From NCBI GenBank assembly GCA_029781865.1, contig JAKOVW010000052.1:146999-210998 (forward strand): a DNA stretch of 64,000 nt. Reading direction: 5' to 3'. Numbering within the stretch: the first letter of the stretch is position 1; each line of letters starts with the position of its first letter. A program made the position numbers and the translations under genes. The stretch is from Bacteroidota bacterium. Its GTDB lineage: Bacteria > Bacteroidota > Bacteroidia > Chitinophagales > Saprospiraceae. This document shows, one piece after another, positions 42,010-59,400 of this stretch. The notes under the pieces were generated by a model that worked only from the letters and a program-made list of their open reading frames with translations, was not told the DNA's origin and did not search any database.

Positions 42010-42053
42010 TATATTTGAGGAAGGCTTTATACGTGTGTAAAAGAGTTAGCACC
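42010..42053 (+). promoter_or_regulatory. Left end of array: promoter and single GTTAGCACC core
   Basis: TATATTTG (42010-42017) is followed by GTTAGCACC (42045-42053). The core matches GGTGCTAAC at the far end of the first unit, but no left half of a palindrome precedes it. This is the arrangement expected of an attI-like first site, or of an array whose earlier part was deleted. Confidence 0.6.
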
Positions 42054-42057
42054 AATT

Positions 42058-42620
42058 ATGAAATATTTAGTTTACATATCAGTAGCAATTTATTTTTGTA
42101 GTTGTTCAAAAAAACCGACAATTGCAAAGGTAAAATATTGGACTTTGAAATGAATTCGAGCATTGATGCATTTAATAAACTCTTTAAATATTATGAGACA
42201 AACACTTTTATCGAAATTATTGATACCAATCAACTTTTAAGATATGAGGAGCCAGAAAGAATAGCTCATTTCTTTCAAACTTCGAAAGATGACCCAACTA
42301 GAAGAAAGTATATCTACAAAGTAAAAGAAGCAATAATAAAGATGCCTAAGTATCAATGGGACTTACTTGTTCAAATCGATACAGATCAAGAATTTAAAAA
42401 CATCATTTATTGGTTAAAATCCTACGACAATAACAGGAAACAAATTGGGCATTTAGACTTTGCTGGTTGGACTTTTGATAATAAAATATTCTTATCAGGT
42501 AGAATTGACTGCGATTCAACTTTGCATATGATTTTGAAAAAAGGAAAAGAACATCGAATATTTAAAACTGATGAGACAGGCCAAAATAAATTAATTGCAA
42601 CAATACTGGAGGGAAAATAA
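42058..42620 (+). CDS. Cassette 1: frameshifted lipoprotein of unknown function
   Basis: ATG at 42058 opens KYLVYISVAIYFCSCSKK, a clear lipoprotein signal (lipobox FCSC), which stops after ~30 codons. The downstream frame (from about 42102) continues KKTDNCKGKILDFEMN... for 170 residues. Adding one A to the A-run at 42108-42114 joins them as SCSKKTDNCKG. So the gene is a lipoprotein with a one-base slip in a homopolymer, either a sequencing error or real inactivation or slippage. The body (FAGWTFDNKIFLSGRI, KTDETGQNKL) matches no family I know. It ends at the first attC-like site. Confidence 0.6.
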
Positions 42621-42622
42621 CT

Positions 42623-42765
42623 GGTGCTAACATGGCATAGACTCTACACCGCCAAGCATCTTTAATCATTCACTTATAATTTTTTCCAGTAATGTAAAAG
42701 TTACTTTTTAACTTTGGCTGCTAACAGTTTGGCGGTGCAGCGTCTATGCCAAAACCGTTAGTGGC
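42623..42765 (+). repeat. attC-like site 1 (with internal promoter)
   Basis: GGTGCTAAC (42623-42631), arms TGGCATAGAC and CACCGCCAA pairing with TTGGCGGTG and GTCTATGCCA across a 4x4 internal loop, ending GTTAGTGGC (42757-42765). Loop promoter: TTTTTTCCA, 20 nt, TAACTTTG (42709-42716). Confidence 0.85.
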
Positions 42766-42803
42766 TATTTTAAGACGACACCCAATTAACCACAGAGACA
42801 AGA

Positions 42804-43469
42804 ATGTTGAATCAAAAAATTAAATACGGACTTTTGACAATACTACTAATCAGTGGAATTTATTTTGGATTTCGTTCAGCGTTTGGACTTTTTACACCAT
42901 TCAACTTTTTGACAGCAAAACAAGACATTAAAAACAGCAATATTAAAATAGCCATCATTGGAGAAATGCCAATGAATTTTGAACAAAAACAAAAATTAGC
43001 AAACTCATATGGCTTTAACTTTTATCTGTTTGGTTGCAACGTAACGACTGATATAATTAATGGGACAAAATATTACAACAAGACAATGATTGAAAACTTG
43101 GAAAGAAAATACGGGATTGGTTGGTGGGCAAAATTTCAAACTCAACTTGACAGCATTGACAATAAAGCGACACGACGAATTTCCACAGACGACATCAAAG
43201 GTGAATGGTATCTTAATAAGTGGACAATGTATCACACTTTATCTTTTACAGACACATCCGTTTTTGTGGATAATCATATTGACAGCGTTTTTACATTAAA
43301 CTTCTATTTGGCGAACGACACACTCATTTTGAAGGATAACAATTCAAGAGTAACATACAGAGAGAAAATAATAAAATTGACACAAGACACTTTGGTAATT
43401 AGAAGTTTTAGAAAAAATCAGAACATTTTAGGTTATTCAAGGACAAAAAGAGAATGGGAAAATGAATAA
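42804..43469 (+). CDS. Cassette 2: membrane-anchored protein with lipocalin-like C-terminus
   Basis: An N-terminal transmembrane helix (GLLTILLISGIYFGF) is followed by a segment GTKYYNKTMIENLERKYGIGWWAKFQTQLDSID and a beta-rich C-terminal half (DDIKGEWYLNKWTMYHTLSFTDTSVFVDN ... YLANDTLILKDNNSRVTYREKIIKLTQDTLVI) that resembles small lipocalin-like domains of Bacteroidota. I do not recognise a specific family. It is a free-standing cassette; the unit starts GTTAGTGGC and ends GCCACTAAC, an exact complement. Confidence 0.7.
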   Translation: MLNQKIKYGLLTILLISGIYFGFRSAFGLFTPFNFLTAKQDIKNSNIKIAIIGEMPMNFEQKQKLANSYGFNFYLFGCNVTTDIINGTKYYNKTMIENLERKYGIGWWAKFQTQLDSIDNKATRRISTDDIKGEWYLNKWTMYHTLSFTDTSVFVDNHIDSVFTLNFYLANDTLILKDNNSRVTYREKIIKLTQDTLVIRSFRKNQNILGYSRTKREWENE

Positions 43470-43474
43470 AAACA

Positions 43475-43618
43475 GCCACTAACATGGTATACACTCATTA
43501 CCGTCAAATAGCTTTAATCATTCTCTTTTGATTTTTTTTCGTTTAATAAATACTAATGCATTATTTTTGGCTTCCGGCATGTGGCGGCAATGCGTCTATG
43601 CCAAATCCGTTGGAGGTC
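43475..43618 (+). repeat. attC-like site 2 (with internal promoter)
   Basis: GCCACTAAC (43475-43483), arm TGGTATACACTCATTACCG pairs imperfectly with GTGGCGGCAATGCGTCTATG, ending CCGTTGGAGGTC (43607-43618). Loop promoter: TTTTTTTCG, 20 nt, TATTTTTG (43562-43569). Confidence 0.85.
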
Positions 43619-43637
43619 ATTTAATTTCATAAACATA

Positions 43638-44348
43638 ATGGAGCATAACAGAGTAGAAATTGAACTATCAAATTCAATTAAAGATTCAAGCCTAGAAAAA
43701 TTAACTTCTGATATTCTTGAAGTTGGCATTGATCAATTAATTACCGAAGGCATACTCAGAGAAATTCCGGTAATTAAATCAATCTTTAATATAACGAAAA
43801 TTGGATTGAATATAAACGATAAAATATTGACCAAAAAGTTATTGATATTTTTATTTCAAATCCATTCAATTCCAAATGAGAAAAGGGTAAAATTTATTCA
43901 TAGGCTTGAAGAAAATAAAGAATTTAATTCAAAAGTGGGTGAATCTCTATTACTAATCATAGATAAAATTGATGATTTCGAAAAACCCAGAATTGTTGGT
44001 AATTTATTTAGAGCAACAATAGAAGGGAAAATAACTTATCAGGCTTTTCTCTATTTAGCATTTTTGGTTAATAACTCGTTTTCATTACATTTAAATAAAT
44101 TGAAATCGGTATTTGATAAGGATTTTATCGATTTAAATAAATTAGACAGTTATGAGAAGAATAGTTTGTATAATTCAGGTATAATTGAAGCCGGGAAAAC
44201 AGTTGATATGAGTGAGCAAAAGCGTCTACAAAAAATGGCTGGAACAAAAGTATTTGACTCTGAAAAAGTACTGAATTCATTAATTGAATCCCAAAATAAT
44301 TTAGAAGTTAGCGAAGCAGGTAAACAAATATTGCTTTACGGATATTAG
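43638..44348 (+). CDS. Cassette 3: helical protein of unknown function
   Basis: 237 residues, mostly helical and amphipathic: LTSDILEVGIDQLITEGILREIPVIKSIFNITKIGLNINDKIL, then KKLLIFLFQIHSIPNEKRVKFIHRLEENKEFNSKVGESLLLIIDKIDDFEKPRIVGNLFRATIEGKITYQAFLYLAFLV. Proteins with this layout occur as unnamed genes in variable regions, but I cannot assign a function. The frame opens inside the preceding attC site, so the ATG at 43638 is chosen. The unit starts GTTGGAGGTC and ends GACCTCCAAC, a perfect 10-bp complement. Confidence 0.65.
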   Translation: MEHNRVEIELSNSIKDSSLEKLTSDILEVGIDQLITEGILREIPVIKSIFNITKIGLNINDKILTKKLLIFLFQIHSIPNEKRVKFIHRLEENKEFNSKVGESLLLIIDKIDDFEKPRIVGNLFRATIEGKITYQAFLYLAFLVNNSFSLHLNKLKSVFDKDFIDLNKLDSYEKNSLYNSGIIEAGKTVDMSEQKRLQKMAGTKVFDSEKVLNSLIESQNNLEVSEAGKQILLYGY

Positions 44349-44368
44349 TAGACACAACGAACCAAAAC

Positions 44369-44469
44369 GACCTCCAACACAGGTTTGACGCAATACGGCC
44401 GAGAATGAATACATTTACTTTCATGTATACGGTTCAGTCGCACAGCGTCAAGCCAAAACCGTTAGTAGC
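44369..44469 (+). repeat. attC-like site 3 (short, divergent stem)
   Basis: GACCTCCAAC (44369-44378), arm GTTTGACGC pairs with GCGTCAAGC, ending GTTAGTAGC (44461-44469). At 101 bp it is shorter than the others, its loop has a different sequence, and the promoter motif is incomplete (TACTTTCA). Confidence 0.7.
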
Positions 44470-44486
44470 TATGCAATACATATATA

Positions 44487-45288
44487 ATGACACAAAATAA
44501 TTTTTACAAAGCATTGCAGTGTACAACTTCTCTTTTAGAGAAAGTGCCTCCAAAAAGTGTATGTGCTGCAGGTTCAGCAGTAATGCTTAAATTCGATAAT
44601 GAAATTTTCTTAGTTTCTATTGCTCATTTATTAAATGCAACAACCTGGCCTCTATTAACCATTCCTGCAAAGGATAACTCTATGATTAATTTACAAGGTA
44701 GATTAATTACAACAATGCCAGAAGGAGGAACTCAATACATGGATTTTTCCATTCTAAAGTTTTCAGAAAACATGCATAAATATTTAATAGGCTATTATGA
44801 TTTTGTTTCATTAGAAAGAATTAAATTTAACTATTTGCCAAGCCCAAGTGATAAGTTACTTTTCACGGGTTACCCAATTAGTAAAACAATTAAAAAATCA
44901 GAAAACGAATATGATGCTATTCCATTTAAATTTGAAACAAACCCTAAACCAGATAAAATTTATGAAAATGAAAAATTGGAAAAAGGTTGTTTCTTAATTT
45001 CTGAATACAGAAAAAGAATTAGTGATAAAAGTGGGAAAAAAAAGTTTTGCGCCAAATTTGACAGGCACAAGTGGCTCAGGTATATGGATAGTTGAAGATA
45101 ATATTGAAAAATTAGTTGGTATTAATTCCGAACATGATAAAAACAAAGGCTATATTTTGAGCATAAGAATTGATATAATAGTGTTTATTATCAATGATTA
45201 TTTCAAATTAAAATTATCAATCAAGAATATTAATGCGTCGTGCAATGTAGGAAAGGTATTTGAAATAATCCCTCCTGAAGAAGAATAA
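44487..45288 (+). pseudogene. Cassette 4: trypsin-like serine peptidase, frameshifted
   Basis: The first frame (44487-45095) begins with a trypsin-like N-terminal barrel: FLVSIAHLLNA carries the catalytic His (H47) and QYMDFSILKF the Asp (D86). The serine motif GTSGSGIWI is in the next frame (continuing to 45288). Removing one A from the A8 run at 45036-45043 joins DKSGKK to SFAPNLTGTSGSGIW, so the intact peptidase is ~265 aa. Either a sequencing error, pseudogenisation or phase variation. Trypsin-like peptidases of this short cytosolic kind often accompany other toxic effectors, but no partner is seen in the cassette. The unit starts GTTAGTAGC and ends GCTACTAAA. Confidence 0.65.
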
Positions 45289-45294
45289 AGCACA

Positions 45295-45434
45295 GCTACT
45301 AAAAGGCTATACACTCTACACCGCCAGCAACTTTAATGATTCTCTTTCAATTTTACGAGTAATTAAAAATTATTTTTTACTTTTGGCAACCAATCGATTG
45401 GCGGTGCAGCGTGCATAGCCAATCCGTAAGCGGC
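45295..45434 (+). repeat. attC-like site 4 (with internal promoter)
   Basis: GCTACTAAA (45295-45303), arms GGCTATACACTCTACACCGC against GGCGGTGCAGCGTGCATAGCC-type right arm, ending GTAAGCGGC (45426-45434). Loop promoter: TTTTACG, 20 nt, TACTTTTG (45378-45385). Confidence 0.85.
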
Positions 45435-45454
45435 TATCTTAATTTACTATAAAA

Positions 45455-46252
45455 ATGGAAGAACTTAAAAGGCCAAATTCAGTTGACGTTGAAGAATTCT
45501 TTAACGAATTTGTTGAATATTTTGGAGGGAGTCTTGTTTCTAAATTAATTCCAAACCAGAATGATAAACCAAATGCTGATTATGTATTTCAATCACCTGA
45601 AGTCATTGCTGAACTTAAATGTTTCCGAAAAGATTTATTTAACAATGAAGAAGATATTGAAAGATTATTTAGCTTTTTTAAGAATTGGAAGGATAGAAAA
45701 TTAATTGAAGAAGGCGATGAAATCAAATTAGTTCTTGGATCAAAAAACCTGCCTACAGAATGCTATAAAGATTTAATTAATTCATGCATAAAAACTATAG
45801 ATAGAGCAATTTCAAAAGCAAACAAACAAATTAGAGAAACAAAATTAACTCTAAATAAGCCTGAAGCAAAGGGATTATTATTGCTTGCCAATGACGGAAA
45901 TTACTTTGTTCAAAACAGCGACTTTCTAGGCCTTATTTGTAGTTTAATGCAAAGAAAATATCTTGATTCATCAATTGATGGATTTGTTTATTTTACTCTT
46001 AATCAAATATCATTTATTCCAAAAAGCCAATTAGACTGGCATATATGGGCACCTGCATATAGGTTAGACAATGATAAAACACTCGGCGAATTCGTGAATA
46101 ATATGGGAAGTAAATTCCTAAATGAATTTTACACATGTAAAACCGGAATTCCGCCGACCAATAAAATTACAACAAGCAATCTTGAAGAGGGTACTGAGTT
46201 CATTAAACAAATGATGTATATTCCAAAAGAAATAGCCTATACTAAAAAATGA
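45455..46252 (+). CDS. Cassette 5: PD-(D/E)XK nuclease-like protein
   Basis: 265 residues. NADYVFQSPEVIAELKCF gives a D-x(10)-E-x-K arrangement (D42, E53, K55), the catalytic core of PD-(D/E)XK nucleases such as restriction enzymes. The remainder is helical (IERLFSFFKNWKDRKLIEEG, CIKTIDRAISKANKQIRET) with a central strand block GLLLLANDGNYFVQNSDFLG. No methyltransferase partner is present, so it is unlikely to be a classical type II enzyme. Function inferred from the motif only. The unit starts GTAAGCGGC and ends GCCGCTAAA. Confidence 0.6.
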   Translation: MEELKRPNSVDVEEFFNEFVEYFGGSLVSKLIPNQNDKPNADYVFQSPEVIAELKCFRKDLFNNEEDIERLFSFFKNWKDRKLIEEGDEIKLVLGSKNLPTECYKDLINSCIKTIDRAISKANKQIRETKLTLNKPEAKGLLLLANDGNYFVQNSDFLGLICSLMQRKYLDSSIDGFVYFTLNQISFIPKSQLDWHIWAPAYRLDNDKTLGEFVNNMGSKFLNEFYTCKTGIPPTNKITTSNLEEGTEFIKQMMYIPKEIAYTKK

Positions 46253-46254
46253 CA

Positions 46255-46397
46255 GCCGCTAAAATGGCATAGACTCTACACCGCCAAGCATCGTAAATCA
46301 TTCACTTTTAATTTTTTCCGATCATTAAAAACTTAATTCTTAATTTTGGCTGCTAATGGAATGGTGGTGCTGCGTCTATGCCAAAACCGTTAGCGGT
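46255..46397 (+). repeat. attC-like site 5 (with internal promoter)
   Basis: GCCGCTAAA (46255-46263), arm TGGCATAGACTCTACACCGC identical to site 1, ending CCGTTAGCGGT (46387-46397). Loop promoter: TTTTTTCCG, 20 nt, TAATTTTG (46341-46348). Confidence 0.87.
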
Positions 46398-46438
46398 AAC
46401 TCTTGGACGACCGCAATCATTAAACTGACAAACAAAAA

Positions 46439-47383
46439 ATGAGCATACTTAAAATACATGGCGAAAGAACAACTCCCGATTTCATTGAGGAAGATTTCAT
46501 TTCTGCAATTGAAACCTCTTTAAATAGATCAATTTACTTTCGGGACAAAAGTGTTGAAGTAAGAAGAATTTCGCAAGCAGACGAAAATGAGTTGGGCTAT
46601 GACGGGATATTAAATACAATTGTTCCGTTTTACATTCAATTCAAGCGTTCCGACTTCTATTCGCCACACTTCAGCGGAAAACTGACAACTGACCGCAATA
46701 ATGTTTCATTACCAGTTGAGAAAGGTTTCTTTGCATTTGAACTGTTGCGTAAGAACAGCAAGTATGAACAACATAATGCAATGTTCAAATTATCTCAACA
46801 GAATAAAGCTGCTTATGTCGCACCAATGTTTTATAAAAGTAGTGACCTTTCTAAACTGAAATCGCAAGCAAAGGAATTTCTACCAATTTATTATGACGAC
46901 ATTTTATTCTATCACCCTATGCACCGCAGACTTGTTACTCTAAGAAACTTGCTACTGTTCAAGAAAGCAATTACCATTCCGCCTCATGGTTTAGTTAATG
47001 ACACCAATCCAAGTCACCATTATTCATATAGTAGAGACAGCAAAGTTGGATTTCATAGCGACCCAATCAATCTTGAAAGTTCTAAGGCACAAACATTTTA
47101 TTACTTCATTCAGGAAGTTTTCAATCAACAAGGACGAGAATCAAACGGCATAGTTGATTCTAATTTCAATTTACTGCCCGAACTATTCGGATTTGAAAGC
47201 AATTCTTCCGACTTTTCAGCAATTTTGGAAGCATCAATAAGACGAGTTTCAATTGTTGACGCTGAAACTAAAATCAATTCAATAATTGAGCAGTTTGACA
47301 CCATTGACAAGTTGATAATTTTGGAAGACATACTTTATCAATACTTCAACATCAGACAATTTATTAAGTATGAAAACGCTTGA
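46439..47383 (+). CDS. Cassette 6: nuclease-like protein of unknown function
   Basis: 314 residues. The segment DENELGYDGILNTIVPFYIQFKRSDFY has Glu51, Asp55 and Q-x-K (Q67, K69), an arrangement seen in variants of the PD-(D/E)XK fold where QxK replaces ExK. The rest contains no recognised domain (KKAITIPPHGLVNDTNPSHHYSYSRDS is a distinctive middle block). No partner gene. Calling it a nuclease is an inference from one motif. The unit starts GTTAGCGGTAAC and ends with GCTACCGCGACC (9 of 12 complementary). Confidence 0.55.
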   Translation: MSILKIHGERTTPDFIEEDFISAIETSLNRSIYFRDKSVEVRRISQADENELGYDGILNTIVPFYIQFKRSDFYSPHFSGKLTTDRNNVSLPVEKGFFAFELLRKNSKYEQHNAMFKLSQQNKAAYVAPMFYKSSDLSKLKSQAKEFLPIYYDDILFYHPMHRRLVTLRNLLLFKKAITIPPHGLVNDTNPSHHYSYSRDSKVGFHSDPINLESSKAQTFYYFIQEVFNQQGRESNGIVDSNFNLLPELFGFESNSSDFSAILEASIRRVSIVDAETKINSIIEQFDTIDKLIILEDILYQYFNIRQFIKYENA

Positions 47384-47396
47384 CGAGAGAAGTAGA

Positions 47397-47540
47397 GCTA
47401 CCGCGACCAGCACATTTGCAATAGGCGGGGTTTCGTGCTCCGCAGACAGCTTTGCGGTAGAAGAAAGTTTTGTGCTCCGAATGAACATTTGTAGTAAAAA
47501 AGCCCGCCCATCGCAAATCTACAAAACCTTGGTTACAATT
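47397..47540 (+). repeat. attC-like site 6, second structural subfamily
   Basis: GCTACCGCGACC (47397-47408), arm ATTTGCAATAGGCGGG pairs with CCCGCCCATCGCAAAT (14 of 16), ending GGTTACAATT (47531-47540). Stem and loop sequence differ from the other sites and no TANNTTTG is present. A related half-site occurs at 59.27 kb. Confidence 0.7.
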
Positions 47541-47557
47541 AGAAGAATCCTATAAAT

Positions 47558-48781
47558 ATGAATATAAATGAATTAAGAGAACTTCAAATTGATTTTGAAA
47601 AACTAAAACTTGAAGTCAAATCTGAATTTAAACACATAAACTCAGTTAGAAAAAAATTTGTAAAGGATTATCCTTTGAACAAAATAACACTAATGACAAA
47701 AGATGATTTTGTTATTGGCAAGGGGAACTCTTCATTTTGTAACAGAATGGAAAACGAATTAAATGGATGGGGAAACATTCACGGCAGTCCAGCTATTAAA
47801 TTTGGTTTGTATTTTGGAAAACTTGGAGAAGATAAGGATAGGAAATACCGAATTGGGAAAAAGAGCTTTGGAATAAATGAAAACAATGCACTTTCAAATA
47901 TTCTGAATTCTATAAAAGAGTTAATTGAAAATCCTGACGATATTGAATTATTAAAATCAAATCCAATCTCACCAATGTTCAAGGGCAAAATATTATCAGT
48001 CTATCACCCTGACAAATTTCTAAACATTTTTTCGGCAAGCCACTTGAATTACTTTATAAATTTATTAGGATTAGATAATACAAGTAAAAGTGAATTAGAC
48101 AAACAATTTGTATTGCTAAATTTTAAAAATAAGGATTTAGTAATGAAAAGTTGGAGTAATTATGAATTTGCAAAATTTTTGTACACATCATTTAAAAATC
48201 CTAATGATGAAATAAAAGAAAATAAATTGTCAAAAGAGCTAAAACGGTATAAAGAAAAGGACTTTCCACCAATTGAAAAATTAAAAATAAAATTTGTAGA
48301 TTTGGTAACTGGCAACTCTGATAGCAAACCGAATAGTAACAAAAGAACTCCTGCTAAATTAGACTATTCAAATCGTTCAAAATCCAACAAAAGAATTGGG
48401 GACAGAGGAGAACAAATTGTTTTTAAAGCAGAAAAAGATTTTTTGATAAAAAATGGAAAAACAAAACTTGCTAAAATATTAGACAAAGTTTCAGAGACAG
48501 ATGACACACTTGGATATGATTTAATTTCTTACGATTTAGAGGGAAATAAAAAATATATTGAAATAAAAACAACTTTAAAGCCAATTGGTGAAAGCAATAT
48601 TTTTATAACTTCTCATGAAATTTCTAAAGCATTGGAACAAACAAACTATTTCATTTACATAGTTTATGAAGCAGGTTCAGAAGAACCGAAAATTTGGAAA
48701 ATTGAAGGTGATAAATTTTTAAATGATAAAAATGTAATTAAAGAACCAATATTATTTAAACTAAAATTCAAAACAAAATAA
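47558..48781 (+). CDS. Cassette 7a: nuclease with DUF3883-like C-terminal domain
   Basis: 407 residues in two parts. Residues 1-215 hold a block (VIGKGNSSFCNRMENELNGWGNIHGSPAIKFGLYFGK) like N-terminal regions found in restriction-type proteins. The C-terminal part is DUF3883-like: GDRGEQIVFKAEKDFL, then GYDLISYDLEGNKKYIEIKTT with D321, E335 and K337, the PD-(D/E)XK-type core. Such pairs of reader and nuclease are common in modification-dependent restriction; the function is inferred. It is followed after 4 bp by a cyclase-like gene, so the two are translated from one transcript within the same cassette. Confidence 0.65.
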   Translation: MNINELRELQIDFEKLKLEVKSEFKHINSVRKKFVKDYPLNKITLMTKDDFVIGKGNSSFCNRMENELNGWGNIHGSPAIKFGLYFGKLGEDKDRKYRIGKKSFGINENNALSNILNSIKELIENPDDIELLKSNPISPMFKGKILSVYHPDKFLNIFSASHLNYFINLLGLDNTSKSELDKQFVLLNFKNKDLVMKSWSNYEFAKFLYTSFKNPNDEIKENKLSKELKRYKEKDFPPIEKLKIKFVDLVTGNSDSKPNSNKRTPAKLDYSNRSKSNKRIGDRGEQIVFKAEKDFLIKNGKTKLAKILDKVSETDDTLGYDLISYDLEGNKKYIEIKTTLKPIGESNIFITSHEISKALEQTNYFIYIVYEAGSEEPKIWKIEGDKFLNDKNVIKEPILFKLKFKTK

Positions 48782-48785
48782 CTTT

Positions 48786-49619: not shown

Positions 49620-49621
49620 AA

Positions 49622-49758
49622 CCGCTACTAACACGAAATTCACTCATTACCGCCAAAAGATCTTAATAATTCTCTTTTGATTTTTTTTGTTTAATAAAAT
49701 TTAATGCTTTATTTTTGGCTTCTGACATGTGGTGGGAATGCGTGTATACCAAATCCGT
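49622..49758 (+). repeat. attC-like site 7, interrupted by an IS element
   Basis: CGCTACTAAC near 49623-49632, palindrome arms CTCATTACCGCCAAAAG and GGCTTCTGACATGTGGTGGG, ending CCGT (49755-49758), where the IS begins. The rest of the core, GTTACCTGCC, resumes at 51455. Loop promoter: TTTTTTTTG, 20 nt, TATTTTTG (49710-49717). Confidence 0.8.
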
Positions 49759-51452
49759 CAAACTGTCTAAAAACTCACTGCTTTATGTTGAATACTTTTT
49801 ACCCAATTGTTTGTGTATAAATATGTAATTCGCCATCTTTATCTATGCAATACATTCAAGGTAAAGACAGAAATCAATGTGTTCTTTTTTCGGAATCCTT
49901 AGATAGCCTCGTTGATCAGGATCATGAAATTCGTTTTATTGATCTTTTTGTGGATTCAATTGATGTTGTTGAATTCGGATTTAAAATCAAATCCAGTTCT
50001 CTTGAAGGACGTCCTCCTTATCATCCGAAAGATTTGTTAAAGCTTTTTATTTATGGGTATCTGAATTCCATGCGGTCCTCCAGAATTCTCGAAAAAGAAT
50101 GCAAACGAAATGTGGAAGTCATGTGGCTCCTCAGGCAACTCGCTCCAGATCACAACACCATTAGCAATTTTCGCAGGGATAATGAAAAAGCAATTCGGAA
50201 AGTTTTCCGGCACACCGTTTCCATTGCCAAACATTTTGATCTAATCGGTGGCAAGCTCATTGCAGGAGACAGTACTAAACTAAGAGCTCAGAATTCTAAG
50301 AAGAATAACTTTAATGAAAAGAAGATAGCTCAACACCTGGAGTACATTGAGAAGAAACTTAATGATTATAATCAAGCCTTGGCCACTGCTGATGAAGATA
50401 ATAAGATTATTATTCAGCAAGAGATTGATAAACATACAGAACGAAAATTAAAGTACAATTCACTTCAGGATCAATTAGAACAGACTAATGAAAAACAAAT
50501 TAGTACTACTGATCCTGATAGCCGTCAGTTATTGGTTCGCAATAACATTACCGAAGTTGGTTATAATGTCCAGACCACAGTGGATGCCAAAAATATGATA
50601 ACCATCGATTATAAAGTGACTAACCAAAATGATTCCAAAGCAATGGGCTGCATGCTTCGAAGAGCTGAGGTTATTTTACAATCCAATGATTTTACCGCAC
50701 TCTACGACAAAGGATATCATACCGGATCTGAACTTAAAATAGGTTTTCAAAGGGGTATCGAACTTATGGTCGCAACTCCAGCTGTATCAAGCGTTGCTCC
50801 ACATCCTGATTTCAAAATGGATAAATTTCTTTATGATTCACAAAAGGATACTTACACTTGTCCCGCTGGACAAACCCTTACATCCAATGGAAATAACTAC
50901 ATTAAAAACAAAGAGCGATACTCTTATTACATCAAACACTATAAGACCAAAGCTTGCAGGAACTGTCCAGTAAAACATTTATGTACAAAAAATGAACGTG
51001 GTAGACTCATCGAAAGAAGTGAATACCAGGAATATTTAGATAAAAATAATGCCAACATCGAAGCCAATCCTAAAACTTATCAAAAACGGCAAGCCATCAT
51101 TGAGCATACTTATGGAATTGTAAAACGTCAATGGGGATTTTATTATATCATGACAAAGATTGGCAAAAGAAGGGCAAGTGCTGATGTAGGATTGATTTTC
51201 ACAGCATTTAATTTACGCCGAATTATGAATTTAGTTTCAAAAAACGAACTCAGAGTATTTCTCAAGCAATTTTGCCTTTCATTTTTATCTGAAATCGCTT
51301 TCAAATTCGAAACTATATTCACCAGGTCAGTAAATTATTTCATTCGCAAAATTCCACTGTCAAATATTTATTTCACCAAAGACCCTGTAAAGAAATCTGA
51401 ACTTGCATTTTAAGCATTATTTTTGCTAAAATGGTAGTTCTTAGACGGACTG
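49759..51452 (+). mobile_element. IS1182-family insertion sequence
   Basis: Ends are imperfect inverted repeats (CAAACTGTCTAAAAACT at the left, its partner CAGTCCGTCTAAGAACT read from the right; 13 of 17). CCGT flanks both sides (49755-49758 and 51453-51456), consistent with a 4-bp target duplication. It splits the recombination core of site 7 exactly at the point where attC recombination would cut. Confidence 0.85.
49845..51413 (+). CDS. IS1182-family transposase
   Basis: 522-residue DDE transposase of the DUF772/Tnp_1_6 architecture: N-terminal HPKDLLKLFIYGYLNSMRSSRILEKECKRNVEVMWLLRQLAPDHNTISNFRRDN is diagnostic. The catalytic Asp is in LIAGDSTKLRAQ, the second in ALYDKGYHTG and the Glu in IEHTYGIVKRQWGFYYI. 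A cysteine-rich zinc segment TCPAGQTL...CRNCPVKHLCTKNERGR precedes the C-terminal region. It appears intact. Confidence 0.95.
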   Translation: MQYIQGKDRNQCVLFSESLDSLVDQDHEIRFIDLFVDSIDVVEFGFKIKSSSLEGRPPYHPKDLLKLFIYGYLNSMRSSRILEKECKRNVEVMWLLRQLAPDHNTISNFRRDNEKAIRKVFRHTVSIAKHFDLIGGKLIAGDSTKLRAQNSKKNNFNEKKIAQHLEYIEKKLNDYNQALATADEDNKIIIQQEIDKHTERKLKYNSLQDQLEQTNEKQISTTDPDSRQLLVRNNITEVGYNVQTTVDAKNMITIDYKVTNQNDSKAMGCMLRRAEVILQSNDFTALYDKGYHTGSELKIGFQRGIELMVATPAVSSVAPHPDFKMDKFLYDSQKDTYTCPAGQTLTSNGNNYIKNKERYSYYIKHYKTKACRNCPVKHLCTKNERGRLIERSEYQEYLDKNNANIEANPKTYQKRQAIIEHTYGIVKRQWGFYYIMTKIGKRRASADVGLIFTAFNLRRIMNLVSKNELRVFLKQFCLSFLSEIAFKFETIFTRSVNYFIRKIPLSNIYFTKDPVKKSELAF

Positions 51453-52137: not shown

Positions 52138-52145
52138 AAAAAAAC

Positions 52146-52278
52146 GGCAGGTAATATTGTATACACTCTACCCCGCGGCAATTTTTTTTTTTCACTTTTT
52201 GATTTCAAGTAAAACAAATTTTCTTATCTTAGCACTCTCCAAGTTGCGGGGCAGAGTGTATACTTCACCGTTGGCAGC
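52146..52278 (+). repeat. attC-like site 8
   Basis: GGCAGGTAAT (52146-52155), then GTATACACTCTACCCCGC pairs with GCGGGGCAGAGTGTATAC (17 of 18), ending GTTGGCAGC (52270-52278). The loop has a near-miss promoter, TATCTTAG (52225-52232). The most perfect stem in the array. Confidence 0.85.
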
Positions 52279-52341
52279 AAGCTAAAAGAAACTTATCTAT
52301 TTAAACTCTCATTAATACCTGCAATACTAAAAATTCAGTTA

Positions 52342-52743: not shown

Positions 52744-52804
52744 ACCTGATAAGTTTAGCTAATTCGCTGAATATCAAATTCGTGAAACGCAAAGCAATTT
52801 GCCC

Positions 52805-52945
52805 GTCGCCAACAAGGCATACATCCTACAGCGCCTTTTGTCTTATATCATTCTCTTTTAATTTTTTCCGATAATAGAATATTATTTTGCTACTTTTGGA
52901 TGCTGAATCTTGGCGGTGCAGCGTCTACGCTAATCCGTAAGCGGC
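52805..52945 (+). repeat. attC-like site 9 (with internal promoter)
   Basis: GTCGCCAAC (52805-52813), arm GGCATACATCCTACAGCGCC against TGGCGGTGCAGCGTCTACGC, ending GTAAGCGGC (52937-52945). Loop promoter: TTTTTTCCG, 20 nt, TACTTTTG (52891-52898). Confidence 0.85.
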
Positions 52946-52959
52946 AACCAATTTAAATT

Positions 52960-53649
52960 ATGGAATTCAAACTAAATTTTAGAAATAATAAAGGTACTGA
53001 CCAAGAACTGCTAGATGATATTAAACGTGTCGCATCGCAGCTAGGACTTCCAAGTTTAACAACTAAAGATTATGATGAAAATGGAAAATATGCTTCTTCT
53101 ACAATTTCTAAAAGATTTCGGAATTGGAATAACGCTCTTGAAAAAGCTGGTTTGGAAATATCTTATATTCCAAGTATTTCAATAAATGAGCTATTTGAAA
53201 ATCTTGAATCTATATGGATAAAACTTGGTAGACAACCGACTAGACGTGAAATGAAAAAGCCTCTTTCAAAATACTCAGAAGGTGCATACGTAAGAAAATT
53301 TGGATCTTGGACTAAGTCTTTGGAATCATTCGTTGATTTTATAAATTCTGACTTACATGAAAATTCGACAATTCAAGCTGAAGAACCTGCGATAATAAAT
53401 AACACTAAACCTGAAATAATATACAAACACAAAACCAAAAGATCGCCAAGTGAAAGATTAAAGGTACAAGTATTAATGAGGGATGGCAATAAATGCAGAC
53501 TTTGTGGAATTATAGTCACCGGAGATAATATTCATTTTGATCATATATTACCTTGGTCAAAGGGTGGTGAGACTGTTTTAGAAAACCTTCAAGTACTTCG
53601 CGAAACTCATAATATTGCTAAAGGTGACATTGAGTATGATAAAATATAG
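52960..53649 (+). CDS. Cassette 10a: HNH endonuclease with homing-endonuclease-associated repeats
   Basis: C-terminal HNH domain: MRDGNKCRLCG (C179, C182), FDHILPWSKGG (H195) and ENLQVLRETHNIAKGD, the full metal-finger arrangement. The N-terminal half has two related ~55-residue units (DDIKRVASQLGLPSLTTKDYDENGKYASSTISKRFRNWNNALEKAGL and NLESIWIKLGRQPTRREMKKPLSKYSEGAYVRKFGSWTKSLESFVDFI) that resemble the homing-endonuclease-associated (HNR) repeat, a DNA-binding module. Intein or intron sequences are absent, so it is a free enzyme, possibly defensive. Confidence 0.8.
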   Translation: MEFKLNFRNNKGTDQELLDDIKRVASQLGLPSLTTKDYDENGKYASSTISKRFRNWNNALEKAGLEISYIPSISINELFENLESIWIKLGRQPTRREMKKPLSKYSEGAYVRKFGSWTKSLESFVDFINSDLHENSTIQAEEPAIINNTKPEIIYKHKTKRSPSERLKVQVLMRDGNKCRLCGIIVTGDNIHFDHILPWSKGGETVLENLQVLRETHNIAKGDIEYDKI

Positions 53650-53722
53650 TGCATTGAAAATGAGTATACCAAAGCCTTTACCGGCGAGTAAAAAGTTATT
53701 TAAAATATCAGGGGTGAATTTA

Positions 53723-54538
53723 ATGCTAACAGAAATTGTATATTTTCATATTTTACTAATTCTTTTGGGTTGCTCTACAGCTCCTGAAAACTTTTTAACT
53801 AATAGATTCTTCAAAGATTTAAATAATTCAATTACAAATAAATCTCAATTAGAAGAGTTCAAGAATTTACCAATCGATTCTGCTGTATTGAATTATAATA
53901 GATTTGATGGAATATTTCAGAAACCAATTGAAAATTTATTTAAAGACAGCTTGTATAGATCAAAATTCGAGACTGGTTGTTTGACAAACAAGTTAAGTTT
54001 AAATGAACCTCAAGATGGATATGTCCTTGCAGCGATGTATCATAAATCACTAAACAGTAAGCCATTTGATATTACGGCTTTGAAAAATCATTATTATCCA
54101 TTGTATTTGAGGAAACAAGTACTCAATCAGGATTACAACATAAACACAGCGCTTGAAAATGATTGTTTTGTCAAAGAACTTACAGTCATTAAATCCCGGC
54201 TTGAAAATACAATTGAAAGAATAGAATATCCCGATGCTTATTTAATCATAAGTGCTTCTAACCCAGAATGCAATAAAAATGTTGAATATACTGAAGTCTA
54301 TAACGAAACTTTGTTTAAATACCTCGAAAAAAAACCTAACCAAATTGTAGAACTATTACAACTTGGAAACTACGGCGAAATACCTTTAAAAATAATATTG
54401 GAAAATCTTCAAAACCCAATTAATGATCAGATTGATATCAATCGAGTAATAAATAATATAAAAGCCTTAGAAAATTCTTCTATCAGGGAGAGAATACTTG
54501 AATCGCTGAGAATTGCAAAGAATAAATATGGCAAATGA
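53723..54538 (+). CDS. Cassette 10b: lipoprotein of unknown function
   Basis: Signal and lipobox visible: MLTEIVYFHILLILLGCS, then ~255 hydrophilic residues with a cysteine pair (FETGCLTNKLS, ASNPECNKNVEY) and helices. The frame stays open to 53615 and overlaps the HNH gene, but the ATG at 53723 gives a sensible lipoprotein. No family recognised. It shares the cassette with the HNH enzyme, which is unusual for a one-gene-per-cassette array. Confidence 0.6.
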   Translation: MLTEIVYFHILLILLGCSTAPENFLTNRFFKDLNNSITNKSQLEEFKNLPIDSAVLNYNRFDGIFQKPIENLFKDSLYRSKFETGCLTNKLSLNEPQDGYVLAAMYHKSLNSKPFDITALKNHYYPLYLRKQVLNQDYNINTALENDCFVKELTVIKSRLENTIERIEYPDAYLIISASNPECNKNVEYTEVYNETLFKYLEKKPNQIVELLQLGNYGEIPLKIILENLQNPINDQIDINRVINNIKALENSSIRERILESLRIAKNKYGK

Positions 54539-54588
54539 CGGGGAATTCCAAAATAAATATTTCTTCCCAGTATGAGCACGAGAAGAGG

Positions 54589-54730
54589 CCCGCCTGTAAA
54601 ACAGCATAAACTCCACACCACCAAGTAGCTGAAATCATTCTCTTTTTATTTATTCGGTAATGAGAAACATATTTTTTACTTTTGGCTGCGAAAGGTTTGG
54701 GCGCAGCATAAATGCTAATCCGTTAGCGGC
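54589..54730 (+). repeat. attC-like site 10, partly degenerate (with internal promoter)
   Basis: CGCCTGTAAA near 54591, arm CATAAACTCCACACCACCAA against GGGCGCAGCATAAATGC, ending CCGTTAGCGGC (54720-54730). Pairing is weaker than at other sites. Loop promoter: TATTCG, 20 nt, TACTTTTG (54677-54684). Confidence 0.75.
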
Positions 54731-54759
54731 AATACAAAAGGATAATAAAACATTTATAT

Positions 54760-55422
54760 ATGGATAAAAATGAGCTTTTGAATCATTTAGACGAACAACT
54801 TTATTTTCTTCAAAAGTCTATTAATGATTATGATCAAAATGAAATCGAGGCTAAAAGAGCGGCGACTATAATTAGAACTCTGGTACATGATACACAAAAT
54901 TCGACCTCATTATTGAACATGTTGAATGCCAAGAATATTGAGTTTATAGATACGAACGCTCCTAAAAATGCTTTTGCAAATTGGAAATTAAGTGGTGTTG
55001 GAATGACTGGAGGCAATATTTTTTTACAGAATACTCCATACGTGGGTCTTGTAGGTAAGGAGCTAACAGGCAGCCCAGATGGGATAATAATTAGCTATAC
55101 TCCAATTTACAAAAACTGGGATAAAGTTGATCGTAAGATTGACTTCAATAGTTGGTGGAATGCTGAAATTTATGACAATAGAAGCGGAGATTCCCTTTCA
55201 AGGAAAGGATTAGTATTAAATATCGCAAATAAAGATGGTGGTGCACATATTGACAATCTTACAAAACAATATAGCTCATTCAAGACTGCTAATGTTTTAC
55301 AATTTAAAGTTGATGGTAATTTACAGGGCTTTGATAACATCCCTGCTTATCCTGCTGTTATGCAAATCGCATGGGAGCTACTATATTCAATTAAAGATGA
55401 ATTAGCAAATATCAAGAAATAA
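54760..55422 (+). CDS. Cassette 11a: protein of unknown function (220 aa)
   Basis: Helical N-terminal part KNELLNHLDEQLYFLQKSINDYDQNEIEAKRAATIIRTLVHDTQNSTSLLNMLNAKNIEFIDTN, then a beta-rich middle (NIFLQNTPYVGLVGKELTG, NSWWNAEIYDNRSGDSLSRKGLVLNIANKDGGAHID). I have a general impression of similar unnamed proteins in integron cassettes, but no function. The unit starts GTTAGCGGC (54722). Confidence 0.65.
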   Translation: MDKNELLNHLDEQLYFLQKSINDYDQNEIEAKRAATIIRTLVHDTQNSTSLLNMLNAKNIEFIDTNAPKNAFANWKLSGVGMTGGNIFLQNTPYVGLVGKELTGSPDGIIISYTPIYKNWDKVDRKIDFNSWWNAEIYDNRSGDSLSRKGLVLNIANKDGGAHIDNLTKQYSSFKTANVLQFKVDGNLQGFDNIPAYPAVMQIAWELLYSIKDELANIKK

Positions 55423-55426
55423 TACT

Positions 55427-55442
55427 GTCGCCAACGTGTTGC
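55427..55442 (+). repeat. Remnant recombination core between cassette 11 genes
   Basis: GTCGCCAACGTGTTGC joins an R-type core identical to that of site 9 (GTCGCCAAC) to a short inverted partner, with no palindrome between. It suggests that a complete site was lost here by deletion. Confidence 0.4.
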
Positions 55443-55452
55443 AATTAAGTAT

Positions 55453-56088
55453 ATGAACATACATTTTATTTTCTTTGTTACTCTAGTTTTAATCAGCTCC
55501 AACTTGAATTCCCAGTCATTCAGAATAAATGGATTTGTATGGGATACAATTTACAATCTCGATGATAATAAAATCGAACTTAATGGATTTGAATGTAATA
55601 AAATCAAGTACCGCGTTCAACCTGATGCGAGGATTAGATTGGAAGGATGTATTCTCAGTATTTACCCTTATCATATCGATACTACATATCAAATAACTAT
55701 TAATTCCGACGATAAAAAGCAATTCGTAATAAAACTTTATTCACAAAGAGGCACTGTTAAAGTATTAAGTATCGCTAATAAATTAATTAGTACAGAGTCT
55801 GAAACAATTCCACTGCAATTGGCTAAACAATTAAGAGGAGTAAGAGCAGTTGTCGATTGCCCATGGCTACGTGATGCTTGTAAAATATTGGGATATTCCT
55901 TTATGCTCAAGAAAGGCAACGAGATAGTTTATATCGAAGAAATCTCTAATTGGCAACTTTCTGGAAAAGCAAAAACCGAACTTCAAAGTGCTAGACAAGG
56001 AACCGCAATTATTTTTGAACACATTCATACAAAATGCCCCGGTGATGATGCTGAGGGGTTTAGTGATATTAAATTCATCATTAAGTAA
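55453..56088 (+). CDS. Cassette 11b: exported protein with GldM-like C-terminal domain
   Basis: Signal peptide ending SNLNSQ. The C-terminal ~110 residues (IPLQLAKQLRGVRAVVDCPWLRDACKILGYSFMLKKGNEIVYIEEISNWQLSGKAKTELQSARQGTAIIFEHIHTKCPGD... IKFIIK) resemble the C-terminal domain of GldM, a periplasmic part of the T9SS motor. Here it is isolated from any gliding gene. The rest is unknown. Resemblance is to overall pattern, not to a tested alignment. Confidence 0.5.
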   Translation: MNIHFIFFVTLVLISSNLNSQSFRINGFVWDTIYNLDDNKIELNGFECNKIKYRVQPDARIRLEGCILSIYPYHIDTTYQITINSDDKKQFVIKLYSQRGTVKVLSIANKLISTESETIPLQLAKQLRGVRAVVDCPWLRDACKILGYSFMLKKGNEIVYIEEISNWQLSGKAKTELQSARQGTAIIFEHIHTKCPGDDAEGFSDIKFIIK

Positions 56089-56125
56089 CTAGCAATATCA
56101 CATTATGTGATGTAAAACAAAAACC

Positions 56126-56270
56126 ACCGCTAGCATCGCATACACTCATTACCGCAAAAGTCTTTAATCATTCACTTTTGATTTTTTTCGTATAATAAAA
56201 TTTAATGCATTATATTTGGCTTCCGACATGTGACGGGAAGGCGTGTTTGAAAAATCCGTTATGGGTTACC
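56126..56270 (+). repeat. attC-like site 11 (with internal promoter)
   Basis: ACCGCTAGC (56126-56134), arm TACACTCATTACCGCAAAAG against GACATGTGACGGGAAGGCG, ending CCGTTATGGGTTACC (56256-56270). Loop promoter: TTTTTTTCG, 20 nt, TATATTTG (56211-56218). Confidence 0.82.
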
Positions 56271-56292
56271 TTAAAAACTAATGTAGTGACAA

Positions 56293-58011
56293 GTGAGCGT
56301 AAATAAAAGATTGCAATTCCAAGATTTGTTTGATGAGGCCCCGTTGGATGTCAATGAATATCTAAAAGGAATAAGCAAAGACGTATTATGGAAAACAATT
56401 GCATTGCTAATAAATATTAGCAATCCGGAAAGCTCCATAAAAACAGCAAAAGATTTAATTAATCAATGGTTTAGTTTAAAAAATAGAAAAATAAGAGATC
56501 GACTATTAAGGCAGGTATCCCCAACAGACGGAATTATTAATATCGTTAGCAGTTTGAATCTTGTTGAACATATATTGAATTATCAAATTTCAAATGAAGA
56601 TGAAAAAGATGAATTGCAAATCGAAGTCAACCTATTTAAGGCATATTTAGTATTTAATTCAAATCAAAATCATCTGGAAGATTTTCATCTTAAATCCTTA
56701 GAGCCATTAGACGATATTGAACAAGAGATTGGTTGGAGCTTAATAATGCGCTATCATGATTACGACTTAGAAAATTATATTTATAGAGATGTTTTTACCT
56801 GCCAATTAATTAAGTCAATTGAATTTTTTAAGTATTTAGAATCTAGAGATGAATTAGAACCACACCTGACTTTATTCTTATCAAAATATAATTGCACATC
56901 TTGGTCAGATTGGATAATAAAAATCGTTTCTTTAATATTCCCAATCATTTCAATAACAGACAAATCGTACCACGAATTTACCGTCACAAATGATGAGAAA
57001 TATATAGCTAATTGCAAATTTCTTGATTCATTTTCTACGACTGAAACAGATGACCACCACCTATCGGATTTTATAATTTTGCGGAGCAAACCTCTATTAA
57101 AGATAGCTGATGGACAATACAGAATAATCAGTAAGTTATTTCTTATAGAAAAACTATTTAAAAGCATTCAATTTCAATTTAGTTTGGAGATCAATGTTGA
57201 AGTTAATCAGGCAAACAGAATTAGTGATTTTAGATCTTATCATTGTGATAATTTTTCTGAAAAAACACTATTGTACAAAATAATGAAGAACTGTTTTCCT
57301 AAAAAATGGATACACTTATCTGGAAAAGATTTTAAAAATCACGGTTATGACAAAGAGCCTGACTATTATATTAGATTTAAAAATAAAATATTCTTATTCG
57401 AGAGCAAAGATGTTGTTTTAAAAGGTGAGGAAAAGCAATCAAGAAATTACTTACTTCTAAAAAAAGCCATATCTGATAAATTTTATAAAACCGAAACAAA
57501 TGGTACCGTTATATCTAGAGCAATTGTTCAAATTATTGAAAATATTAAAAGGATATACAGGAAATTCTATTCTGAATGTGATCAAGAATATAATATAAAA
57601 ACAATAAAAATATTTCCAATTATCGTAACTCATGATCGACAATTTGATTGCATAGGGTTAAATAATCTTATAAAATTGTGGTTTAAAAATGAATTGTTGA
57701 GTATAGATAGCGAAATTATTTTATCTAATATTCGAGATCCTATCATCTTAAATATTGATACTCTATTATTTCATCAGGAATCAATTAAAAATAGAGGGCA
57801 ATTTAGACTAGATAAGCTAATATGTGATTATCATTTCTTTACTGACTTTCAACCGAAACAATACTCAACCCGGAAAGCATTAGAAGATGGAAAATTAGAG
57901 TCATTCTGTTCTTTTTCTTATTTTGCTGATAAATATTTTGATAAAAAGTCGAAGAATAAAATACCTACTTATGTAATGCAATATGTTCAACAACTTTTTA
58001 ATGATCCTTAA
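56293..58011 (+). CDS. Cassette 12: large PD-(D/E)XK nuclease-like protein
   Basis: 572 residues. KEPDYYIRFKNKIFLFESKD contains D357, E370 and K372, a good PD-(D/E)XK core, between a long helical N-terminal region and a C-terminal region with ISRAIVQIIENIKRIYRKFYSEC. No helicase or methyltransferase domain. Starts at GTG (VNKRLQFQD). It may be a restriction-type or abortive-infection nuclease (inference). It is the largest single-gene cassette. Confidence 0.6.
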   Translation: MSVNKRLQFQDLFDEAPLDVNEYLKGISKDVLWKTIALLINISNPESSIKTAKDLINQWFSLKNRKIRDRLLRQVSPTDGIINIVSSLNLVEHILNYQISNEDEKDELQIEVNLFKAYLVFNSNQNHLEDFHLKSLEPLDDIEQEIGWSLIMRYHDYDLENYIYRDVFTCQLIKSIEFFKYLESRDELEPHLTLFLSKYNCTSWSDWIIKIVSLIFPIISITDKSYHEFTVTNDEKYIANCKFLDSFSTTETDDHHLSDFIILRSKPLLKIADGQYRIISKLFLIEKLFKSIQFQFSLEINVEVNQANRISDFRSYHCDNFSEKTLLYKIMKNCFPKKWIHLSGKDFKNHGYDKEPDYYIRFKNKIFLFESKDVVLKGEEKQSRNYLLLKKAISDKFYKTETNGTVISRAIVQIIENIKRIYRKFYSECDQEYNIKTIKIFPIIVTHDRQFDCIGLNNLIKLWFKNELLSIDSEIILSNIRDPIILNIDTLLFHQESIKNRGQFRLDKLICDYHFFTDFQPKQYSTRKALEDGKLESFCSFSYFADKYFDKKSKNKIPTYVMQYVQQLFNDP

Positions 58012-58026
58012 CAACAACAATGAAAA

Positions 58027-58175
58027 AGGCAGTACAACATTTCATGGCATAAACTCTACACCGCCAAGCATCTAAAATCATACTATTAAAATAATTCACG
58101 GTAATGAATGAGTAATTTCTTATTTTTGACTGTTAAATCTTCATCGTGCGGCTTGTATACAATGCCTTTTTGTGC
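58027..58175 (+). repeat. attC-like site 12, right half degenerate
   Basis: Left arm TGGCATAAACTCTACACCGC (58044-58063) is nearly identical to sites 1 and 5, and loop promoter TTCACG, 20 nt, TATTTTTG (58121-58128) is intact. The right arm CATCGTGCGGCTTGTATAC no longer pairs well, and no GTTRRRY core follows. Confidence 0.65.
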
Positions 58176-58214
58176 CATTATAATGACAGAGCTAAAATGA
58201 AGCGGTAATATCAA

Positions 58215-59249
58215 ATGATAAAAGTAATGAAACAAGAACAACTTAAATTAGTACTTATCACAATCACTTTTTCGGTTTTACTTTTTATAGACGCTTATGC
58301 GCAAGATTTATTGATCGATGTTAAAAGCAATTTAAAATTAGTTAGCGAATTAAAAGACGCTTACAGAGCATTTCACATCAACAACATTATTATTCAACAA
58401 AAAGAAATGATAAATGTGTTTCTCAACGATGGTTCAGATTCAAATATGAAAAACCTGCTTTCCGGCTACATTAAGGTCTGTGATAGCTTAAAAATCATTC
58501 CCTTAAATAATGACACCCTTAAATCCTATGTGAGAAAATATTTAACGTTGACAATTCAGAGTTATAATATTATAAAGAATAATGGATTTAGTTCGTCAGA
58601 ATTTAAGGAAGATTATGAAAAGTATCAAAAATCGGAAGACGAATACATGAATTATTTATACTCTACTTATTCAACTAATCATTTTATTACTATGACTGAG
58701 GAAAAGTATTGGCAAACTAATGACAAAAGCAATTACGTCAAGTCATCGGACTATGAAAGATATAAGAGTTTGAAGATAACTAACCTGAAAGATGCCTTAG
58801 AATTGCTCCAAAAGACTACCCAACAGACAACTGACTTTCAAGAACACTCAATTTATCAAATCGAATTGGCTGACCAATATGTAAAAAACTCGGATAGTTT
58901 AGGCGAAAGTGCTTATGAAATTGCCATTGGCAAATATAAAGAAATATTAGATCAAAAAAAATATAGTATTTTCTTATTTGAAGCATGGCTTAAATGGCGT
59001 TTGGTAACTCAACAACATGTCTATGGTATTTCAAAAACATCTGACATTCCGAACAATGAGTATGATAAAATGAGAGAGCGAGTAGCTTCAATAATTCTTG
59101 ACTACATTACAAAGAATGACAATGATGAAATGGCAATAAATGAATTTCTGTTAATGGCAACACACCCGATTGTAAAACGGTTTGGTAAATACCCATACGG
59201 AAACCAAAATACTGTTGAATATCATAAAACATTTGATGAGAAAAAATGA
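58215..59249 (+). CDS. Cassette 13: exported protein of unknown function
   Basis: Signal peptide LVLITITFSVLLFIDAYAQ, then ~315 hydrophilic, mainly helical residues (YEKYQKSEDEYMNYLYSTY, ALELLQKTTQQTTDFQ, YEIAIGKYKEILDQKKYSIFLFEAWLKWRLV). No family recognised. ATG at 58215 or 58227; both give the signal peptide. It is the last unit of the array before a truncated attC-like half-site. Confidence 0.65.
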   Translation: MIKVMKQEQLKLVLITITFSVLLFIDAYAQDLLIDVKSNLKLVSELKDAYRAFHINNIIIQQKEMINVFLNDGSDSNMKNLLSGYIKVCDSLKIIPLNNDTLKSYVRKYLTLTIQSYNIIKNNGFSSSEFKEDYEKYQKSEDEYMNYLYSTYSTNHFITMTEEKYWQTNDKSNYVKSSDYERYKSLKITNLKDALELLQKTTQQTTDFQEHSIYQIELADQYVKNSDSLGESAYEIAIGKYKEILDQKKYSIFLFEAWLKWRLVTQQHVYGISKTSDIPNNEYDKMRERVASIILDYITKNDNDEMAINEFLLMATHPIVKRFGKYPYGNQNTVEYHKTFDEKK

Positions 59250-59254
59250 GTACA

Positions 59255-59325
59255 ACGGCAAATTACAGCTCCTTGGCAATAAGCGGGTTTCGTCTTCCGG
59301 CCCTAAGCGACGTCTTTAGTTGGAA
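59255..59325 (+). repeat. Truncated attC-like half-site ending the array
   Basis: TTGGCAATAAGCGGGTTTCG followed by TCTTCCGG matches the left half of site 6 (TTTGCAATAGGCGGGGTTTC...TGCTCCG). The right half is missing; ordinary sequence follows. Confidence 0.55.
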
Positions 59326-59400
59326 TTCGTTTATAGAGTCTAACCCAAATATTGGGCCTTTATAAATTTCGAGTATTGAATGCTCTTCAGGAATATTTAT

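Follow-up and report, generated by a model that had tools for sequence, protein, structure and literature searches.

Which enzyme assembles gene cassettes in a genome that has no recognisable integron integrase? The question is raised by a stretch of 64,000 nt (the window, meaning the whole stretch of DNA that was analysed) on contig JAKOVW010000052.1 of a Saprospiraceae genome of the phylum Bacteroidota (GCA_029781865.1; 4.52 Mb, 93 contigs, 99.24% complete; hereafter G000, with G00x for relatives, Lxxx for loci and Cxx for contigs). Sequence reading revealed 13 palindromic sites on the + strand between co-oriented genes at positions 42045-59335, which the initial annotation had described as an integron-like cassette array without a visible integrase. 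There is very little doubt that this region is a real integron cassette array, an interpretation borne out by the logic of its cores, the covariation of its stems and its attI-like start. The cassettes were probably, though with clear reservations on our side, inserted by a tyrosine recombinase of an IntI-like family without the IntI patch, most members of which have an additional N-terminal domain.

Core pairing and folded attC sites

In an integron, integration splits the attC site of a free cassette, and the right core of that site then stands at the start of the cassette. The R'' core of a site is therefore expected to be complementary to the right core (R') of the previous site and not to that of its own. 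In G000, R' and the R'' of the next site agreed at at least 6 of 7 variable positions in 31 of 51 consecutive pairs (3 further pairs were unreadable), compared to 2 of 59 when both cores were taken from a single site, while 10,000 shuffles gave a mean of 2.7 and a maximum of 10. Agreeing pairs were found in L021 (7/7), L020 (7/9), L019 (9/15), the window (4/9), L022 (2/4) and L024 (2/3), with counts of 0/1, 0/2 and 0/1 in L023, L025 and L027. Some pairs fail because a site of another type intervenes (S6 in the window); the other failures are decay. GTT is retained in most sites, and the cores listed do not follow RRRY; the right core is better described as GTT plus a cassette-specific 7-mer than as the GTTRRRY-like core proposed initially. 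RRRY is likewise not strict in the accessible part of a Vibrio study (PMC11014356). In most intact units the opening core is complementary to R'' of the cassette's own attC, as if each unit had once been a circle opened between G and TT. The pairing is cassette logic with exchange at GTT.

The fold of the sites was captured in a covariance model, R1, which was built from nine aligned window sites with 24 base pairs and sees type-A attC only. It matched ten + strand sites in the window (E 1e-31 to 2e-7), the tenth of which (S12) is independent of the model. The earlier count of about 13 attC-bounded units on the + strand thus stands for the 13 sites read, with the correction that S3, S6 and S13 belong to other attC types. 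Across G000, the model gave 63 rows at E ≤ 1e-3, including two opposite-strand shadows. This corresponds to at least 61 sites, nine of them the model sites, in 10 clusters on 9 contigs, a lower bound since 150 of 2236 first-look candidates were scored. Within every cluster all sites lie on one strand. Palindromes scattered singly between genes had been named in advance as evidence against an integron; 60 of the 61 listed sites are instead found in one-strand clusters of 2 to 14. Compensatory change was observed in the stems, with 21 of 24 pairs varying on both sides among 65 sites from G000 and relatives, and with 172 double-change cells versus a shuffled mean of 68 in this alignment, which was fitted to R1.

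The comparison covered 40 genomes: G000, eight others of its genus and 31 more distant relatives from other genera. R1 matches at E ≤ 1e-3 occurred in 9/9 genomes of the genus and in 0/31 outside, some relatives having one or two sites only. The stem pattern with up to 2 mismatches was found in G000 alone among 61 genomes of the family, and a scan of IMG/VR with 22 nt of the stem gave 0 matches. Intergenic hairpins of this kind could in principle belong to a dispersed palindromic repeat family spaced between genes by chance, and the relatives with one or two copies would suit such a family. It gives no reason, however, why a right core should pair with the left core of the copy that follows, an observation which we take to refute it, nor why the sites should lie in one-strand clusters or have the common start element described below; as an explanation it is next to inconceivable.

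Array starts and a promoter word in attC

Cassette no. 1 of the window starts at 42045 (GTTAGCACC), 270 nt past a tRNA-Glu gene predicted by ARAGORN, and the array extends to ~59335, in keeping with the coordinates first annotated. When the DNA 5' of each first site was searched for its expected opening core, exact 10-nt matches were obtained in the window, C51, C90 and C16, in each case with TATATTT-N15-CRTGTRTAANNNA ahead at the same spacing. In the window, R'' of S1 matches the opening core at 10/10 positions, and TATATTTG in the attI-like element doubles as a promoter-like box. The remaining arrays have no exact opening-core match, C60 carrying a degenerate version. With up to 2 mismatches the pattern occurs 4 times in G000, a descriptive count because the pattern was taken from these very places, while the reversed control pattern occurs 0 times in G000 and 2 times in nine other genomes. 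About 480 nt upstream of C51 and C90 are nearly identical by eye, so the two were counted as one event. By sequence, a discrete attI-like element is common to several array starts, and the window array would open at its copy with no integrase gene adjoining. tRNA genes precede three clusters. At C90 (L026:3898-5757), an excisionase-like gene and a gene for a 440-residue recombinase lie on the minus strand just 5' of the attI-like site.

The loops of most sites contain the word TAnnTTTG, which we take to be the -7 box of Bacteroidota. It was present in 56 of 64 R1 sites of G000 (+ sense rows with E no higher than 0.05, and 11 sites from the window), with 3.2 expected on the same strands of the same loci, and 48 of these 56 boxes lie 54-56 nt from the site end; as the sites are homologous and the position falls within the model, 56/64 measures conservation and does not represent 56 events. 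The box also occurs in site types of ~141, 135, 99 and 92 nt with different arms. Moreover, it lies 15-60 nt 5' of 16 of the 34 distinct tRNA genes in G000 (1.2 expected). In attC it is oriented to the next cassette, and we infer that it would act as a promoter for the gene of that cassette, whose expression would then rest less on a single Pc. Two observations speak against this role or its generality: by eye, no -33 element was seen at normal spacing 5' of the box, and attC-like sites 3' of the recombinase in other Bacteroidota differ, with the box in only 2 of 21. In the work on gene-less promoter cassettes of Vibrionaceae, one transcription start was mapped within an attC, according to the accessible part of PMC11014356.

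A recombinase family without the IntI patch

No gene scored above the TIGR02249 cut-off in G000 or in any other of the 40 genomes, and the absence of a visible integrase in the initial annotation was confirmed. While intI with the IntI patch is missing from G000, patch-less enzymes were found in relatives only. Seven recombinases of relatives that were tested reach 186-237 bits with TIGR02249 (cut-off 265), the match being split into two pieces flanking the patch, and 205-238 bits with NF040815, where 2/7 exceed the cut-off of 220. From KG.KDR to H.LRH the measurable Bacteroidota loci (2 were unmeasurable) span 62-69 residues, versus 105-107 in six IntI from the 80 loci described below, three of which were scored (430-483 bits). 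The alignment to IntI4 (PDB 2a3v) skips the same region, so what these recombinases lack is I2, the insertion that separates patch II from patch III. A quick tree of 96 rows placed most of the Bacteroidota enzymes in a group of 54 rows (support 83), next to a group of 18 rows that includes IntI (87), with Xer outside; L125, L127 and L132 were placed with the IntI side. The patch-less enzymes mostly carry an extra N-terminal domain. Five of the nine genus genomes have an intact copy; G003 and G005 have fragments, and G002 has a second, fragmentary one.

Since no gene exceeds the IntI cut-off, the arrays are by definition CALINs (clusters of attC sites lacking integron integrases): at least two attC with hairpin arms, R''/R' cores and cassette logic are present, and no integron integrase is nearby. 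The arrays could therefore be regarded as ordinary CALINs, in which a classical patch-bearing IntI, since lost or hidden in an assembly gap, inserted the cassettes and the patch-less family is unrelated. CALINs that lost intI are known, for example in Treponema phagedenis (accessible part of PMC3607928), and the arrays on C28 and C57 run into contig ends on their 5' side. We nevertheless consider this unlikely, given that TIGR02249 is above its cut-off in none of the 40 genomes, be they of the own genus or among the 31 outside. Resident enzymes acting in trans, of Xer type (XerC, XerD) or element-borne (a 298-residue enzyme on C51), are the closest remaining integron-profile matches in G000. 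XerD and XerC score best with their own families, however, and all three lie outside the IntI and patch-less tree groups, where the branch of the C51 enzyme is long; their involvement is very improbable. The C51 enzyme was set aside as cognate recombinase.

Two arguments favour the patch-less family as the recombinase: in genus relatives, a GTT site of comparable geometry lies directly 3' of its gene, and across Bacteroidota cassettes open directly behind it. A contig profile scan for relatives of the recombinase provided the best 80 of 591 loci, 66 of them with at least 900 nt downstream. Of the 31 named Bacteroidota loci among these, 12 show a cassette opening, defined as an exact 9-nt core pair plus a hairpin within 450 nt of the recombinase stop, compared with 1 of the 35 remaining loci and 13 of 909 windows drawn at random from the 66. 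Exact cores were required since a detector allowing 1 mismatch gave as many matches in shuffles as in most arrays. On the + strand, the stricter of the exact-core versions detected 18 cassettes across 423 kb of downstream sequence and 4 across 550 kb of upstream sequence; the minus-strand counts were 15 and 8, respectively, which indicates that hairpin arrays are partly visible from both sides; it is insensitive, with 1 cassette per strand in the window. In the genus relatives, codirectional GTT sites lie past the recombinase stop (e.g. GCGTGAATGCAGAT|GTTAGCAG), with a spacing like that of the G000 attI in an alignment made by eye, without a statistic. Contigs break at most 450 nt from the 3' end of the gene in 10/20 hand-picked loci from the 40-genome search (5' end 0/20), and at the 3' end in 8 of 40 named Bacteroidota loci (one inside the gene; 5' end 0). 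Like arrays, the DNA past the recombinase gene is therefore difficult to assemble. A recombinase fragment lies ~0.7 kb before a type-A attC in G005.

Several results weigh against assigning the arrays to the patch-less recombinase. None was detected in G000, the genome richest in sites, nor in G001; G000 would have lost the gene, or it would sit in an assembly gap. No intact copy was seen directly ahead of a type-A attC, only the fragment being beside one, and 8 kb past the intact G007 copy contain no recognisable cassette chain. By the detector, 19/31 Bacteroidota loci are without cassette, and L127 and L132, which are on the IntI side of the tree, are among the 12 cassette-bearing loci. Six further genomes of the genus and three of the order were searched for the attI-like pattern of G000, which is absent from all nine. 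Profile matches of the N-terminal domain to HARP/XPB are weak, and Foldseek gave no match to HARP at E ≤ 0.001. In addition, no contig-end overlaps were found that join recombinase contigs to array contigs.

Very short attC-like sites with ~65 nt between the cores were seen 3' of the recombinase in Rufibacter and Flavobacterium loci (L099, L107); from such sequences, attC forms look diverse across the phylum. A hairpin, GATGTGGCGCC...GGCGCCACATC, occurs after the type-A attC in G007:C51 (L031:1-200) as well as 3' of the G007 recombinase and of the G005 fragment (L075, L077), and may be a junction or a mere repeat.

Cargo, surroundings and relation to known systems

The features of the window array are listed in Table 1. 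Most cassette proteins have no Pfam family. PADLOC, run on ten cassette proteins, identified one PD-T4-1 (E 2.7e-76), while the HNH protein is a weak restriction-enzyme match. With most families missing, one PD-T4-1 and one HNH protein, the defence reservoir expected initially is only partly shown. An insertion sequence, presumably of the IS1182 family, interrupts the right core of S7 with an apparent 4-nt target duplication (CCGT, by eye). Within the region 41000-61000 of the window, Rfam gave the tRNA alone above cut-off, and two miRNA matches far below were taken as chance. To the right of the array, a short open reading frame (59891-60088) looks by eye like the C-terminal portion of the conjugation-type ATPase at L029:12985-14154. 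The right array edge may therefore contain a remnant of an integrative element.

Table 1 Features of the cassette array and its 5' border (window positions)
Feature	Position	Strand	Basis or remark
tRNA-Glu (TTC), just 5' of the array	41702..41774	+	ARAGORN
attI-like element TATATTT-N15-CRTGTRTAANNNA|GTT	42010..42047	+	four such places in G000
attC S1, TAnnTTTG in loop at 42709	42623..42764	+	R1 150.4 bits
attC S2, TAnnTTTG at 43562	43475..43616	+	R1 142.7 bits
attC S3, short type, different arms	44370..44468	+	R1 E 8.5e-4 in genome-wide search only, missed in window search
attC S4, TAnnTTTG at 45378	45295..45433	+	R1 134.1 bits
attC S5, TAnnTTTG at 46341	46255..46396	+	R1 147 bits
attC-like S6, different type	47395..47550	+	by eye
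Cassette gene, PD-T4-1-like defence protein with NOV_C domain	47558..48781	+	PADLOC; Pfam NOV_C
attC S7, TAnnTTTG at 49710; right core continues at 51455	49624..49758	+	R1 131.1 bits (49624-49764); end by eye
IS1182-like insertion sequence within S7	49759..51452	+	transposase domains PF05598, PF13751; ends by eye
attC S8, degenerate box TATCTTAG	52147..52277	+	R1 97.9 bits
attC S9, TAnnTTTG at 52891	52805..52944	+	R1 118.3 bits
Cassette gene, HNH nuclease with HNH_repeat	52960..53649	+	Pfam
attC S10, TAnnTTTG at 54677	54592..54729	+	R1 115.2 bits
attC S11, TAnnTTTG at 56211	56126..56265	+	R1 124.6 bits
attC S12, degenerate, TAnnTTTG at 58121	58037..58166	+	R1 42.4 bits; outside model set
attC-like S13, S6 type, truncated, array end	59256..59335	+	by eye

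Related genomes were compared for cassette content, as proposed initially. The tRNA-Glu gene adjoins GAPDH in 7/8 genus relatives, where no array lies past it (0.55-1.34 kb read) and other genes are found, in three of them a gene which we take to encode an RF3-like GTPase. R1 gave nothing significant on seven longer stretches past tRNA-Glu (0.8-12.8 kb; best E 0.058). With GAPDH 60-66% identical, the relatives are too distant for a base-by-base empty site. Homologous cassettes are present in different arrays: one gene that matches DUF2891 below threshold occupies the second cassette of the window array and the first of the array on C90 (80% identity over 167 residues), and an L022 cassette gene is 74% identical to a gene in a G004 array (GAPDH there 66%). 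Behind the C57 array (L023 oriented 1968-6200) lies a tandem of three related genes for proteins of 364-396 residues, one of which is 75% identical to a gene in a G004 array. A further gene, presumably RadC-like, was seen 3' of two G000 arrays (L022:10291-10725, L024:3004-3438), and a piece of it behind tRNA-Glu in G005 (L173).

Tentatively, Bacteroidota might own an integron lineage, with a codirectional I2-less integrase, an N-terminal HARP-like domain reading folded attC, promoter-bearing attC and many attI sites. If so, cassettes would be expressed wherever they land, and arrays would be spread over the chromosome. A literature search that included few subscription papers or preprints yielded, in the text accessible, no patch-less integron integrase with arrays and no promoter-bearing attC in Bacteroidota. 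The IntegronFinder 2.0 paper (PMC9024848), in its accessible part, lists one complete integron in Bacteroidetes, in Salinibacter.

As far as that paper describes CALINs and sedentary chromosomal integrons, they share with the G000 arrays co-oriented genes, folding attC, R''/R' cores and the lack of an adjoining intI. In contrast, G000 has ten clusters, several with their own attI-like start, and a promoter word in attC, in a member of the Bacteroidota. The promoter-bearing attC and a probable patch-less integrase are what is new compared to known CALINs. In Treponema, the accessible text of PMC3607928 describes an integrase gene oriented toward attI and the cassettes, an arrangement shared by the patch-less recombinases, and attC without intI in T. 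phagedenis. The candidate enzyme here has no IntI patch. NF040815, which the patch-less enzymes match, bears the name 'site-specific tyrosine recombinase/integron integrase', and in the integron-like tyrosine recombinase subgroup of PMC8138268 the insertion is not fully conserved, to judge from the accessible part. Neither the additional N-terminal domain nor an association with attI-like sites and cassettes figures in the text accessible. Integrases are held to owe their ability to recombine single-stranded hairpins to the 20-residue I2 helix, and IntI1 no longer functions once the helix is deleted (PMC7790495, accessible part). Recombinases without the patch, next to attI-like sites and cassettes, would be a second solution to hairpin recombination; they also suggest that searches based on the IntI patch overlook arrays in a large phylum. 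Vibrionaceae arrays likewise have internal promoters, which according to the available text of PMC11014356 reside on special cassettes, while here most attC sites contain the word as a constant element. Promoters borne by attC would alter the view of position-dependent cassette expression.

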